Part shown: positions 13,162-18,757 of the stretch, in pieces
Numbering within the stretch: the first letter of the stretch is position 1
Layout of the letters: each line of letters begins with the position of its first letter
Notes under the pieces: generated by a model
Database searches by the model: none
Told to the model about the DNA's origin: nothing
The model's input: only the letters and a program-made list of their open reading frames with translations
Origin: an uncultured Paracoccaceae bacterium
GTDB lineage: Bacteria > Bacteroidota > Bacteroidia > Flavobacteriales > Flavobacteriaceae
Direction: 5' to 3'
NCBI GenBank assembly: GCA_943788135.1
Contig: CALSPC010000003.1
Location: forward strand, 62,001-126,000
Length of the DNA stretch: 64,000 nt
Position numbers and translations under genes: made by a program

Positions 13162-14623
13162 GAGAGGGTTTTATAAATTGTTTAATTGTCGCTTTTTCAT
13201 TAAACCAAATGAGGACTAACAATAATCCTATCAGAGCAGAACCAATGCTATACTGCGCTCTAAATTGATAAAATGACAACGCCGATAGCGCTATTGCAAG
13301 AACCAAATAGGTGGCGATTTTTTTAATGTTATAAGGAACTGGATAATGTTTACGTCCATAATAATATGATAATACGGTCATTGAAAAATACGCCACTAAG
13401 GTAGCTACAGCGGAAGCCATATAGTTAAATGACTGGATAAACAGAATGTTGATTAGAAGTGTTACTACAGCTCCAAAAACCGAAATGTAGGCTCCGAAAC
13501 TGGTACGGTCTGTGATTTTATACCAGACTGATAAATTGTGATATATACCGAGAAAAAGATAGGCTAACAATAGAATTGGAACGACTTTCATGGCTTCCCA
13601 ATAGGCTTCATTTGGAATGAGAATGAGTTTTAAAACATCTACAAAAACCACAACAACCAATAGAATAAGGGCGCCACAAATCACAAAAAATTCTAAGATT
13701 TTTGCATAGTTTTTAGTGGCATCTTTGGCGTTGGTTTGACTGAAAAAGAAGGGCTCGATTCCCAAGCGATAGGCTGTTGCAAATAACATCATAAAAAGGG
13801 CGAGCTTATAACAGGCGGAGTACATGCCTATCGATGTTTTAGCTATGGACTCAGGGAGGAGACGTTCAAGCAGAACGCGATCAAAGGTTTCGTTGATGGA
13901 GAAAGCTATCCCAGCCACTAGGACTGGCAAGGCATACCGCATCATTTTTTTCCAAAGTTCTGAATCAATTTTATAGTTGATTTTAAAATAAAATGGCAAA
14001 AGAATCAGCAAAGTGACACCACTTGCAACGAGGTTGGCAATGAAAATATAACTGACTTCAAAATTGGGTACATAGATTAAATCCCAGAAACTATTGTCAT
14101 CAGACAACGCTTTTAAGTACACTAATAAAAACACATTTAAACCTAAATTGACCACTACATTGGTCAATTTAACTGCTGTATATTTCACTGGTTTCCCTTG
14201 CGCTCTAAGATAGGCAAACGGAATAATAACCAAGGCATCAAAAAATAAAATCCACACCACAAGGGTGGTGTAGTTGACATGAATGTGTGTGAGGTCGGCA
14301 ATTTGCTGTTGAAACAGCAAACCAAGGCTTAAAAACCCTAGTGAGGATATAATAATAGAAATAGTGGCAGTACTCAGCACCTTAGCTTTAGAAGGCTCTT
14401 TATTGAAAAAACGAAAAAAAGCAGTTTCCATCCCATATGCAAGCACCACATTAAACAGTACAAAATAGCTAAAGATCAAAGACACATCGCCATAGTCTGA
14501 CACGTTTTGAAGCACCGATTTATCAGTATGCAAACGCACCAAAAGAAAACTCAACATGCGAGGCACCACTGTTGCCAAGCCGTAAATGAAAGTTTGTTTA
14601 TATGCTGTTTTTAGGACGCCCAC
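13151..14623 (-). CDS. Polysaccharide/lipid flippase of the MOP (Wzx/MurJ-like) superfamily
   Basis: An integral membrane protein of about 490 residues with some 12-14 predicted helices and the usual N-terminus [20 protein letters not shown] of flavobacterial polysaccharide biosynthesis proteins. It should flip a lipid-linked sugar or peptidoglycan precursor across the inner membrane. The frame is open to a GTG at 14653, but homologues of this type begin close to GVLK, so the GTG at 14623 is chosen with moderate confidence. The gene leads the flippase-dut-TPR-DUF4292-EnvC-like operon, a context that leans toward a cell-envelope role. It is separate from the Wzx-like gene in the polysaccharide locus. 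Confidence 0.85.
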
Positions 14624-14681
14624 AAGTGTCAATTTTATCCTATAAAAATACACATTTTAAGCAACAAACTATAATCGATGT

Positions 14682-15185
14682 TTAAGGTGTTTTTGGCGTG
14701 GCGGCGGGATAGGCAAGACTTTCTCCTTTTTTAAGGTTTGAAACTTTATAATACAGCCGTTTATTATTGACTTGATAACTGATAACACACTCATTTTGAG
14801 ACAGAATAAAAGGCGACGCATCAAATTGTGGGGGTAATGTATTGCCATACTCTGCGCGGCGGTCAGCGCTAAATATAATATCTTTTTTTCGCGTGGTAGT
14901 GTGCTTAAATCGCCCGATAATGAGCTGGTCTCTAATTTCTACAGCCGATTTCTCACCTCTAAAATGAAGGCTGTCTATGGTAATTCTAGAAATACCTGTT
15001 GTGGGTAAAAAGACATTAATTCCAGAGCCTGCATCTTCAATTCCTGCAATCCAGGCGTTGTAATAAGGGTCTATAATTTGTATAGGCGCAGTTGTCTGAA
15101 ACTGTTGCAACGGGTCTTGGGCACTCTTACAATTAAATGTACTTAAAAAAATAATTCCTAAAATCAGTGGGGTTTTGAGTTTCAT
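14682..15185 (-). CDS. Hypothetical lipoprotein
   Basis: The protein is 167 residues from the ATG at 15185. An upstream in-frame start at 15212 is less likely because it would put nine residues in front of a normal signal sequence. The lipoprotein signal is MKLKTPLILGIIFLSTFNC. The rest is beta-rich with no recognised motif. It sits between the atp operon terminator and the flippase operon, and ends with the proline/alanine-rich tail YPAATPKTP. Function is unknown. The family seems to be found only in Flavobacteriaceae, but that is an impression, not a search result. Confidence 0.7.
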   Translation of the reverse strand: MKLKTPLILGIIFLSTFNCKSAQDPLQQFQTTAPIQIIDPYYNAWIAGIEDAGSGINVFLPTTGISRITIDSLHFRGEKSAVEIRDQLIIGRFKHTTTRKKDIIFSADRRAEYGNTLPPQFDASPFILSQNECVISYQVNNKRLYYKVSNLKKGESLAYPAATPKTP

Positions 15186-15256
15186 CGGGTTTAAATTTAG
15201 AGGTATAAACATACGTGATTTTTAATTGAGTTAAAAATAAAACAACTTTTATGCCA

Positions 15257-15287
15257 TAAAAAAAGCCTTACATATGTAAGGCTCTGT
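15257..15287 (-). terminator. Intrinsic terminator of the atp operon
   Basis: A perfect 20-bp palindrome, agccttacatatgtaaggct (15264-15283), is followed on the minus strand by a run of T (complement of the A run 15258-15264). It lies 28 bp after the atpG stop, as expected for the end of the atp transcript. Confidence 0.8.
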
Positions 15288-15311
15288 TTCGTATAAATTG
15301 AGATCAAACTG

Positions 15312-16166
15312 TTAGCCATTAAGTGCTTCTGCTCCACCAACAATTTCTAGGATTTCATTGGTAATGGATGCTTGACGTGCTTTATTATACGTCAATTTAA
15401 GCTGATCTCTAAGCTCTGTAGCATTGTCAGTTGCTTTGTGCATTGCAGTCATTCGAGCGCCATGCTCGCTTGCGAAACTATCTCTAATGGCCTTATACAA
15501 CTGCGTCTTTAAAGATTTTGGAATCAGTGTTTCTACAATTTCTTCTTTTGACGGCTCAAAAATATAATCCAAGCTTACAGCGCTATCACTTTCAATAGGT
15601 TCAATTGGCAAAAACTGTTCCGTCATGATTACTTGAGTCGCTGCATTTTTGAATTTATTATACACTAGTTCAATCTTGTCAAACGCTTTCGTTTCAAATT
15701 GCGCCATAAGCATCTCCGCTATTTCAGCAACATTATCAAATGTTAAGTCGTCATATATAGGGCTTTGATTAGAAATAATCTCAAAGTTTTTAGACAAGGC
15801 ATCATTCGCTTTTTTACCAATAGCCACAACAGATACCTTGGCATCATAACGTTCTGCAACTAAATTAGCTTGCTTAATAATGTTAGAATTAAACGCTCCA
15901 CACAACCCTCTGTTTGAAGTAATAGCAACGATTAGCACATTCTTTAGTTCGCGTTGTTCTGAATATTTGCTTCCAGAATCGGCATCTAAAGTGGCGCTTA
16001 AGTTTTGTAAAAGCTCCGTCAGTTTATCCGCATATGGACGCATCGCTGTGATAGCATCTTGTGCTTTTTTTAACTTAGCAGCCGATACCATTTTCATGGC
16101 ACTTGTAATTTGCATCGTTGACGATACGGACGCTATTCTATTTCGGATTTCTTTTAAATTTGCCAT
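15312..16166 (-). CDS. atpG: ATP synthase subunit gamma
   Basis: Central rotor stalk of F1; it links c-ring rotation to catalysis in the alpha/beta hexamer. The 284-residue length is typical. The N-terminal helix ANLKEIRNRIASVSSTMQIT, the middle SNRGLCGAFN and the C-terminal helix RQASITNEILEIVGGAEAL are the conserved family blocks. It is last in the atpBEFHA-G operon and is followed by an intrinsic terminator. It is unusual only in its distance from atpA (433 bp), which is taken up by an inserted four-helix-bundle gene. Confidence 0.97.
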   Translation of the reverse strand: MANLKEIRNRIASVSSTMQITSAMKMVSAAKLKKAQDAITAMRPYADKLTELLQNLSATLDADSGSKYSEQRELKNVLIVAITSNRGLCGAFNSNIIKQANLVAERYDAKVSVVAIGKKANDALSKNFEIISNQSPIYDDLTFDNVAEIAEMLMAQFETKAFDKIELVYNKFKNAATQVIMTEQFLPIEPIESDSAVSLDYIFEPSKEEIVETLIPKSLKTQLYKAIRDSFASEHGARMTAMHKATDNATELRDQLKLTYNKARQASITNEILEIVGGAEALNG

Positions 16167-16172
16167 TTTTCA

Positions 16173-16195
16173 AGTTATGAGTGCAGAGTTATGAG
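16173..16195 (+). repeat. Terminal inverted repeat of the atp-operon insert, left arm
   Basis: Matches the reverse complement of 16561-16583 at 20 of 23 positions. It contains agttatgagt twice in direct orientation, in part. The TAA stop of the enclosed gene (complement of 16189-16191) lies within it. Confidence 0.8.
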
Positions 16196-16524
16196 TTTTT
16201 AATGATTGCTACTAAAATTCTTATTAACTCTTCACACTTATTCATCATTTCTGTTGGAACTTCTCTTCCTGTAGCTTCAAGTATTTCTAACCAATATTTG
16301 GTTTCATCAGCTTCCTTTAAAGCAATTCCAAATTTATTTCTAAAGTCCTTTTTACTAACTCCTCTTTGAGCTTCTCTTGTATTGGCTCCAATACTCGTTC
16401 CGCTTTTTAGCAATTGAGAAGCTAACTCAAAATCCTTATTTTCTTTTAATTTATCCGTAAAACAAACAATCTCACAAGCAAATTGAAAACTTTTTACTCG
16501 AATTGGACTATTCTCTAAGGACAT
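16189..16524 (-). CDS. Four-helix-bundle protein of the 23S rRNA intervening-sequence (IVP) family
   Basis: The 111-residue protein is all-helical, with the family hallmarks LKSGTSIGANTREAQRG, FRNKFGIALKEADETKYWLE and a C-terminal helix NKCEELIRILVAI. The family is the protein encoded in 23S rRNA intervening sequences and is structurally related to the Avd accessory protein of diversity-generating retroelements; basic surfaces suggest nucleic-acid binding. Here it sits alone between atpA and atpG, in operon orientation, flanked by inverted repeats. Its last codon and stop come from the repeat arm, so the coding region and repeat evolved as a unit. It has no known role in ATP synthase. No reverse transcriptase is nearby. 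Confidence 0.9.
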   Translation of the reverse strand: MSLENSPIRVKSFQFACEIVCFTDKLKENKDFELASQLLKSGTSIGANTREAQRGVSKKDFRNKFGIALKEADETKYWLEILEATGREVPTEMMNKCEELIRILVAIIKNS

Positions 16525-16560
16525 TTTTTTAAGTTGTTAGTATTTAGTTAAAGTTATGAG

Positions 16561-16583
16561 CTTATAACTCTGAACTCATCACT
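16561..16583 (-). repeat. Terminal inverted repeat of the atp-operon insert, right arm
   Basis: Reverse complement of 16173-16195 with three mismatches in 23. It is followed on one side by the tandem ctctaaactctaaact and on the other by agttatgag in opposite orientation, which could form a competing local hairpin (about 16552-16569). Confidence 0.8.
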
Positions 16584-16599
16584 CTAAACTCTAAACTTT

Positions 16600-18180
16600 T
16601 TAATCTTTATACTTTCCTGACAACTCTTTTGCAACTGCGGTTAAGGTGTCTGTAACTTCATCCGTTAACTTACCTGCTTTTAGAGTGGCTAACACATCAC
16701 TGTGCTTGGCTCTTAAAAACTCGATATATTCCGTTTCAAATTCTTTGACTTTATTTACAGGAACTGCTCTTAAAAGATTTTTAGATCCTGCATAAATGAT
16801 GGCAACTTGATCTTCTACTTTAAAAGGGTCATTTTGTGCTTGCTTCAAAATTTCAACGTTACGACGTCCTTTTTCAATTACATTTAAAGTCACGGCATCT
16901 AAGTCCGATCCAAACTTAGCAAAGGCTTCTAATTCACGGAATTGTGCCTGGTCTAATTTTAGTGTTCCAGAGACTTTCTTCATCGCTTTAATCTGTGCGT
17001 TTCCACCCACACGAGAAACCGAAATACCTACGTTAATTGCTGGACGAACACCAGAGTTAAACAAATCACCGTCTAAGAATATTTGACCATCCGTAATCGA
17101 AATTACGTTGGTTGGAATATAGGCAGAGACATCCCCTGCTTGAGTTTCAATAATTGGAAGTGCTGTCAAAGACCCGCCACCTTTTACAATCGGCTTTAAT
17201 GCTTCTGGTAAATCGTTCATGTCTTTTGCAATTTCATCATTATTGATGACTTTTGCTGCACGCTCTAATAAACGGGAGTGTAAGTAAAATACATCTCCTG
17301 GATACGCCTCACGTCCTGGAGGACGACGTAATAAAAGGGATACCTCACGGTAAGCTACGGCTTGTTTTGATAAATCATCATAGACAATCAATGCTGGACG
17401 ACCCGTGTCTCTGAAATACTCGCCAATAGCTGCACCTGCAAAAGGAGCATAAACTTGCATTGGAGCAGGATCAGATGCATTTGCTGCAACAATCGTGGTG
17501 TAGGCTAAAGCACCTTTTTCTTCTAATGTTTTAGCAATCAATGCAACTGTAGAGGCTTTTTGTCCTACGGCTACATAGATACAATATACAGGTTCACCTG
17601 CATCGTAAAATTCTTTTTGATTTAGAATGGTATCAATACACACCGCTGTTTTTCCAGTTTGTCTGTCTCCAATTACCAACTCTCGTTGTCCACGACCTAC
17701 AGGGATCATGGCGTCAATAGATTTGATACCGGTTTGTAAAGGCTCTGTTACAGGCTCACGGAAAATTACTCCTGGCGCTTTACGTTCAAGTGGCATTTGA
17801 TAAACCTTGCCATCAATGGGCCCTTTGCCGTCAATTGGCGCACCTAAAGTGTCGACCACACGACCAACAATACCTTCTCCAACATTGATGGACGCAATAC
17901 GACCAGTTCGTTTTACAATTGAACCCTCTTTTACAACTTTAGAAGCACCTAAAAGTACGATACCAACATTGTCTTCTTCAAGGTTTAGTACAATCCCTTC
18001 AAGATCGCCTTCAAATTGTACAAGTTCACCATACTGTGCGTTTGAAAGTCCGTATGCACGAACAATACCATCACCTACAGTTAATACGGTTCCAACCTCA
18101 TCTAATGAAGCTGTTGCTTCGAAACCTGAAAGTTGTTGTTTTAGAATTGCTGATATTTCAGCTGCTTTTACTTCTGCCAT
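16600..18180 (-). CDS. atpA: ATP synthase subunit alpha
   Basis: Regulatory, non-catalytic nucleotide-binding subunit of F1. The 526-residue protein contains the Walker A sequence GDRQTGKTA (about residue 170), [12 protein letters not shown] with the Walker B aspartate, [21 protein letters not shown] in two parts and the C-terminal helical domain. It is followed by the inserted four-helix-bundle gene and then atpG. The catalytic beta subunit gene (atpD) and atpC are not in this window, consistent with the split atp loci known in Bacteroidetes. Confidence 0.98.
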
Positions 18181-18220
18181 CTTAATTTATTTTATACCTC
18201 TGATAAATCTCAGTATAGTT

Positions 18221-18757
18221 TTAGTTAATTGTAAATTTACGTTTTAGTGTGTTTAATTGGTTCGAGACGCTGGCATCATATTGCTGATCCCCTACACGCA
18301 GAATAAAACCTCCAAGGAGGTCTTCATCTACAGATTTATGTAACGTCACTTCCTTTGTGGTTAGGGTTTTAAGCTTTGCCATTACCTTTGTTTCCAGTTC
18401 AGGATTCATAGGAATAGCCGTGGTTACAAAGGCATTTTCTTTATTGTTTTCAATGTCATATAGAATCCCGTATTGGGCGGCTACTTGACCTAGTATATCG
18501 ACTCTTTTATTGGTCACAAGAATATCGAAAAGCGATTTACTTTCTGAATTCAGAGAAGGAAATAAGGCGTTCAATACGTCGGCTTTTTCGGACAACTTAA
18601 CCACAGGGCTTTTTAGGACATCGGCTAAAGAGGCGTTGTTTTCAATGGCCTGACTAATTAGAACCATATCTGCTTGCACTGCTGCTGCTGATTTGTTGTC
18701 TGTTGCTAGGCTTAAAATAGCTTTTGCATATCTGATTGCTGCTCGTGTTCCTGCCAT
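18221..18757 (-). CDS. atpH: ATP synthase subunit delta
   Basis: Peripheral stalk subunit that joins F1 to subunit b. The 178 residues include the N-terminal helical domain (AAIRYAKAILSLATD) and the conserved C-terminal block LHKSVDEDLLGGFILRVGD. It lies 6 bp after atpF and 40 bp before atpA in the operon. Confidence 0.94.
   Translation of the reverse strand: MAGTRAAIRYAKAILSLATDNKSAAAVQADMVLISQAIENNASLADVLKSPVVKLSEKADVLNALFPSLNSESKSLFDILVTNKRVDILGQVAAQYGILYDIENNKENAFVTTAIPMNPELETKVMAKLKTLTTKEVTLHKSVDEDLLGGFILRVGDQQYDASVSNQLNTLKRKFTIN

Follow-up and report, generated by a model that had tools for sequence, protein, structure and literature searches.

The insert that separates atpA from atpG in the window (the whole 64,000-nucleotide stretch of DNA analysed, from a genome that its relatives place in the Flavobacteriaceae) carries a single gene, which encodes a 23S rRNA intervening-sequence protein (IVP; S23-type, four-helix-bundle, PF05635), and is bordered by two inverted arrays of degenerate heptads that are predicted to pair in the operon transcript. 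The same repeat-gene-repeat layout is found in other operons and other phyla, which points to an old and so far unrecognised class of operon insert. The interpretation that we favour, and in which we have moderate confidence, is that of an ancient "IVP element" residing in operons, which would be to protein operons what the intervening sequence (IVS) is to 23S rRNA. The features of the junction are collected in Table 1.

Table 1. Features of the atpA-atpG junction, in positions of the window.
Feature	Position	Strand	Evidence
atpG, downstream neighbour	15312..16166	(-)	Pfam
Whole atpA-atpG insert, 433 nt	16167..16599	(-)	junction sequence
3' arm, inverted heptads, contains IVP stop codon 16189-16191	16172..16197	(-)	sequence, repeat search
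IVP gene, four-helix-bundle, PF05635/TIGR02436, 111 aa	16189..16524	(-)	profiles, AlphaFold, fold match
Local hairpin within 5' region	16550..16571	(-)	MFE fold
5' arm, degenerate heptads (GAGTTNN)n, directly after atpA stop	16561..16598	(-)	sequence, repeat search, periodicity scan
atpA, upstream neighbour	16600..18180	(-)	Pfam

The protein belongs to the PF05635/TIGR02436 IVP (S23) family and has its four-helix-bundle fold. It matches the Pfam profile PF05635 with an E-value of 6.1e-22 (78.3 bits, curated cut-off 33.8) and TIGR02436 with an E-value of 2.9e-28 (98.3 bits, cut-off 24). The AlphaFold model shows four helices with a mean pLDDT of 94.9, and its best fold match in Foldseek is 2rld, a member of the S23 family (TMq 0.89); 2gsc is also matched. 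The structure of Avd (4dwl_C) is matched more weakly (TM 0.70, Foldseek E 1.0). The original prediction of an IVP-family gene between atpA and atpG is thus borne out by the profiles and by the Pfam identification of the neighbours. The gene is the sole one of the insert and is codirectional with the operon. The insert lies between two protein genes and not in a 23S rRNA gene, and Rfam gives no match in 14600-18300 at an E-value of 0.1. It has no transposase of its own, its only listed open reading frame on the operon strand being that of the IVP.

The arms had been described from the letters as 23 bp long (16173-16195 and 16561-16583) with 20 of 23 positions matching as inverted repeats, one of them supplying the stop codon of the gene. 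A count by eye and an inverted-repeat search confirm these arms, and the stop codon does lie in the 3' arm. Two further alignments of the arms come out of the search: 16168-16202 with 16554-16588, which is longer (35 nt, 77%), and 16172-16197 with 16573-16598, in a second register (26 nt, 81%). The span proposed for the element, 16173-16583, therefore contains real arms but stops short of the outer portion of the 5' arm; Table 1 gives the full extent of the insert. Both arms are made of degenerate 7-nt tandem repeats, (GAGTTNN)n on the atpA side and the complement on the atpG side. The idea that heptads are a genome-wide trait was rejected: the 64-kb window has only one stretch of strong 7-nt periodicity (16581-16615, identity of at least 0.68), which is this arm, and lags of 6, 8 and 9 give no periodic stretch at the same threshold. 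In the 1.9 Mb of the own genome, a search with the heptad pattern returned five matches, three of which are these arms, compared to three for a control pattern.

In the 471-nt operon RNA, the insert is closed by a stem in the second register, in the MFE fold as well as in the centroid fold (MFE of -93.5 kcal/mol, z -2.4, a level reached by 2 of 100 shuffles). The repeat search, the duplex z and the folds indicate that the terminal inverted repeats around the insert are able to form a stem, as those of an IVS do. Taken by itself, the arm duplex of this locus exceeds chance only moderately (z -2.8), and alternative folds exist because part of the 5' arm can pair locally, in the hairpin listed in Table 1. 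The signal is stronger when relatives are considered: in 77 atp junctions (what remains of 81 after removal of 4 near-duplicates), the duplex between the 5' and 3' arms has a median z of -4.0 versus shuffled partners, with z < -2 in 71. The stop codon falls within the 3' arm in 51 of the 60 atp loci that have arms (69 examined). The 3' arm starts at most 10 nt from the stop codon in 57 of these 60 loci and in 60 of 95 armed loci across the class, and the median arm length is 31 in both the atp and the class-wide sets. The IVS-like layout proposed for a protein-coding operon holds up, since the predicted stem encloses the IVP gene and the layout proves to be general for IVP genes.

PF05635 is found in 120 of 149 Bacteroidia genomes, with 1 to 23 matches each. 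The class-wide set consists of 110 loci from the high-scoring end of this list (30 taken automatically and 80 chosen by hand), and is not a random sample. Inverted similarity of the flanks beats all 100 shuffles for 84 of these 110 loci, compared to 8 of 150 neighbour genes and none of 22 other genes. Direct similarity of the flanks goes beyond all 100 shuffles in 20 of the 110, and the arms are absent or weak in 26. The arm duplex has z < -2 in 67 of the 110 IVP loci and in 12 of 172 controls, which include neighbour genes that share one flank with the IVP gene. Heptad periodicity is seen in 83 of 148 gaps adjacent to IVP genes and in 9 of 44 other gaps, a small control. The arms are specific to their locus, the own 3' arm being the best partner for 38 of the 67 loci with z < -2. 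IVP genes are codirectional with both neighbours slightly more often than control genes (92/108 vs 69/95, a modest excess). Several sites recur: 15 beta-oxidation enzyme/thiolase pairs, 9 thiolase/acyl-CoA dehydrogenase, 8 SufB/SufC and 4 semialdehyde dehydrogenase/class-III aminotransferase, where one example of each kind of pair was named by Pfam.

In each of two genomes, a pair of distinct IVP genes is separated by about 1.65 kb and seems to belong to a single beta-oxidation operon (L009 and L018 in G001, L015 and L029 in G014). In F. columnare, the gene order guanylate kinase, four helix bundle protein, nicotinate nucleotide adenylyltransferase looks like that of an operon-borne IVP gene, and Table 5 of PMC5524665 counts this locus among phage elements. 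According to Table 1 of PMC5787105, the IVP gene FP0094 of F. psychrophilum is expressed, at a lower level in biofilm (log2 FC -2.38), so that at least one operon-type IVP gene is transcribed.

The layout extends to other phyla. Relatives of the IVP occur in 25 plasmid records, 11 of which were analysed (eight from Cyanobacteria and one each from Spirochaetota, Chloroflexota and Bacteroidota). The inverted match of the flanks beats all 200 shuffles in 11 of 11 loci, the arm duplex has z < -3 in nine, and in five an even stronger direct match is present. Heptads are present in 19 of 20 IVP-adjacent gaps, compared to 5 of 27 others. Three cyanobacterial copies are antisense to both neighbours, two of these between cas2 and cas1; a shared sense transcript is therefore not always present. 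At the cyanobacterial plasmid loci L256, L257 (2.4-3.1 kb) and L264, heptad-armed IVP genes have cas2 and cas1 on their two sides or cas genes next to them, two of the IVP genes being antisense, and the "23S rRNA IVP" of a figure legend on CRISPR-linked domains in PMC10910872 may be an inserted passenger. At L259, L263, L264 and L266, where the direct flank match exceeds the inverted one, each flank can form its own hairpin as judged by eye, and two hairpins may border the gene.

These counts bear on whether the arms could be a by-product of replication, in which slippage makes the heptads, template switching makes the inverted copies and neither has a function. In most genomes, no long simple repeats are more abundant than those of 7 nt, according to Mrazek 2007 (cited in PMC4679880), and the strand symmetry of the arm mismatches reported below agrees with such a process. 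However, the arms are tied to one gene family (84/110 vs 8/150) in four phyla, and heptads are rarer in the other gaps of both surveys (9/44 and 5/27). We find this explanation quite improbable.

The two arms of an element change in concert. In 26 atp loci, hand-chosen from the 77 and mostly one per genus, each arm pairs with its own partner at -28.8 kcal/mol, compared to -24.5 kcal/mol for swapped partners; in 11 sufB-sufC loci the values are -33.4 and -19.6 kcal/mol (0 of 20,000 permutations in both cases). The own arm ranks first in 6 of the 11 sufB-sufC loci when the 5' arm is fixed and in 7 when the 3' arm is fixed, with no preference for the own partner at L268 and L283. In the full set of 77 atp loci, own arms pair no better than swapped ones (with foreign species, about 46-47% of the swaps do equally well), since one heptad is common to most species. 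In the lineages with a GAATT unit (seven loci), the own partner ranks in the best 0-20% when the 5' arm is fixed, and the preference is less clear when the 3' arm is fixed (0.01 to 0.91). Core words correlate between the arms of the 77 loci (rho of 0.53 for GAATT, 0.43 for GGGTT and 0.57 for TTATGGG), in statistics that ignore relatedness and for which 16 words were tried. The order of the units counts as well, beyond a shared core. Indeed, successive units are 22% identical at their most variable phase, yet the two arms agree there at 63-66%, and when the units of one arm are permuted, the real order scores above the permuted mean at 67 of the 73 loci compared across the class (Fisher p 4e-7). 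At atp alone the same test is weak (Fisher p 0.08), with 48 of 55 loci exceeding the mean.

The mismatches between arms give no class-wide support to selection on sense-RNA pairing through an excess of G-U: there are 120 G-U and 123 A-C (p 0.90). At atp the excess of G-U is weak (56 vs 37, p 0.06). Since A-C mismatches are as frequent as G-U across the class, a DNA-level cause of the similarity between arms is possible. The arms might then be the ends, or protein-binding arrays, of a DNA or retro-element that spreads slowly with the help of the IVP, RNA pairing being incidental. Besides the strand symmetry of the mismatches, the presence of the unit at many unrelated sites and in several phyla, sometimes antisense to both neighbours, agrees with such an element, as does the resemblance of the IVP fold to Avd of diversity-generating retroelements (TM 0.70, E 1.0).

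The history of the gene shows long residence. A scan of genome contigs found 100 relatives, of which 80 were kept, and 73 of these 80 are housed in the atpA-atpG junction with arms of the same type. According to the record titles, the atp-junction relatives belong to Flavobacteriaceae and Crocinitomicaceae. In the gene tree (80 rows, one of which is labelled non-atp and is the own atp copy), the atp copies stand on one starred branch with L025/L026 and with L133-L139, a group found beside the Crocinitomicaceae copy L127; they are therefore not strictly one clade. For the 62 of 77 loci with an intact reading frame, the IVP distances track those of atpA (r 0.69) and atpG (r 0.74), the correlation between atpA and atpG being 0.79, and 0 of 2000 permutations was as high for each. 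The median dN/dS of the IVP gene is 0.081 over 463 pairs: it is under purifying selection, and fixed operon sites are occupied over family and class distances. Its presence is patchy. A match of at least 60% identity was found in 27 of 299 genomes of the family, some of them partial or with stops, and the position at the junction was confirmed via atpG coordinates for six of the 27.

The original prediction also held that the insert might be mobile or self-excising, and this part does not survive the comparison, given the common junction of 73 of the 80 relatives, the tracking of atpA and atpG and the lack of recent copies. Among 111 IVP proteins compared across the class, eight pairs exceed 76.5% identity and all eight share a site in different genomes, while within genomes (70 pairs) the identity reaches 70.5% at most. 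The comparison thus shows neither recent transposition nor recent copies at several sites, in a class-wide sample that contains few close strains. The same identities, and the lack of a transposase or recombinase in the unit, weigh against the slowly spreading DNA or retro-element, which we judge unlikely. Empty atpA-atpG junctions and further copies with the same arms had been named as the things to look for in relatives; empty junctions with a 17-nt spacer do exist, but the heptad pattern search saw no other copies of these arms in the own genome. The opposite pattern, the same gene and arms in all relatives and no other copy, which had been named as an argument against mobility, is not observed either, as the element is patchy and another IVP gene, with different arms, exists in the own genome.

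In the genus of the window, atpG was obtained from 13 of 18 genomes, and the end of atpA from 12 of these 13. The whole IVP gene is matched at four junctions (with a stop in one of them, G014); of the others, one has a broken gene, one lacks the first half, one (L298) has arms only and five consist of the 17-nt spacer. At least three changes of state are needed on the atpG tree of the genus, and decay and loss of the element recur. The 17-nt empty allele also carries different last codons of atpA. This indicates that the difference within the genus results from allele exchange or replacement, and the clean excision that empty junctions might have implied is rejected. There are two alleles, one in L297, L301 and L306-L308 and the other in L031, L299, L303 and L304, which differ in the last atpA codons; the flanks of the sister species L306 and L299 are 90-98% identical despite their differing alleles, which suggests exchange of short tracts. 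At L298 the gene is gone and both arms are left (69 nt), a possible source of heptad hairpins without IVP gene.

Hairpins at junctions without IVP gene are common elsewhere in the family. In IVP-less atpA-atpG junctions of other genera, a hairpin with z < -2 is found in 23 of 26 cases (median -3.7), compared to 6 of 34 control gaps. The alpha and gamma subunits have a ratio of 3:1, and the stem might be an intercistronic regulatory hairpin that sets the expression of atpA above that of atpG, with the IVP gene as a passenger in its loop. The frequency of hairpins in these junctions agrees with this proposal, but in the genus of the window five of five clean empty junctions are the 17-nt spacer without hairpin, and folding is weak at L298, where only the arms remain (z -1.2). 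Similarly, hairpins are lacking at the empty sufB-sufC junctions (median z 0.0, z < -2 in 4 of 19; 30 loci surveyed, of which 8 are occupied and 3 unreadable). The family hairpins may moreover be collapsed arms in part, 8 of the 26 being heptad-like by eye. A regulatory hairpin with the IVP gene as its passenger appears unlikely to us. The absence of hairpins at the empty suf junctions and at the atp junctions of the genus also led to the rejection of the hairpin as a general target site, despite the 23 of 26 found elsewhere. The atp hairpins may serve regulation independently of the element, or derive from arms that have collapsed as at L298. At suf, where empty junctions have no hairpin, arms and gene seem to be gained and lost jointly, an observation that is in line with an element acting at the DNA level.

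We propose that the ancient IVP element consists of an IVP gene and two inverted arms of degenerate heptads near the ends of the gene, lodged between operon genes. In the operon transcript the arms would pair and set off the IVP reading frame as a loop. By analogy with the rRNA case, where the enzyme is RNase III, a double-strand nuclease may cut the stem; the cut would separate the atpA mRNA from the atpG mRNA and free or discard the loop. Such a cut could allow the insert to be tolerated and the flanking genes to be uncoupled. IVP relatives with solved structures are pentameric, and one may speculate that the IVP protein binds its own arms.

The RNA stem is favoured because the layout of the Coxiella IVS is close to that of the atp insert. 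According to the account of this IVS in PMC4990558, it is 428 nt long, with a 28-bp stem and an S23 ORF, and its stem is cut by RNase III in vitro. The likeness includes the protein family, the position of the ORF within an inverted-repeat stem of about 30 bp, the length (433 vs 428 nt) and a patchy presence with decay of the ORF. The atp insert differs in lying between protein genes and not in a 23S rRNA helix, and its arms, perhaps unlike those of IVSs, are heptad arrays of locus-specific sequence. IVSs are excised by RNase III without ligation; for the atp insert such excision is putative.

Cyanobacterial STRRs are intergenic heptanucleotide repeats. The TAACTGA repeats (PMC4679880) and the heptad elements of Geobacter (PMC2700814) are of the same kind, which shares with the atp arms the 7-nt direct repeats and the intergenic position, in Cyanobacteria and Bacteroidetes. 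The atp arms differ in being inverted around an IVP gene, the relevant sections of both papers treating direct repeats and naming no IVP gene; in PMC4679880, the terms "intervening sequence" and "four helix bundle" do not occur. Avd shares the four-helix-bundle fold (4dwl is matched), and a homology between PF05635 and Avd is noted in PMC10053308. However, the sequence of the atp-insert protein places it in PF05635, and no reverse transcriptase or template/variable repeat was noticed by eye among the ORFs at 10-22 kb. REP/RAYT units also have a single gene flanked by palindromic repeats, but the IVP is not a Y1 transposase and its residence is vertical. A search of the open-access literature, with subscription papers and preprints outside its scope, gave no report that connects the IVP genes with either the atp operon or inverted heptad arms.

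The 23S intervening sequences have been treated as rRNA curiosities, and to our knowledge no function is known for IVP/S23 proteins, for which structures have been solved. It is possible, and we suggest it tentatively, that, in four phyla or more, IVP genes form the core of a single arm-IVP-arm class that has been overlooked, and of which the rRNA IVS is a special case; that many enigmatic intergenic heptad repeats of Cyanobacteria and Bacteroidota are its arms or their remains; and that these units act as cleavable operon insulators which split the mRNA. Many natural loci would allow this to be tested, including paired occupied and empty junctions in one genus. If the arm-IVP-arm layout is general, the IVP family would gain a cis-acting partner, part of the intergenic heptad repeats would be given an origin, and the presence of IVP genes inside operons as unrelated as atp, suf, beta-oxidation and cas would be explained.
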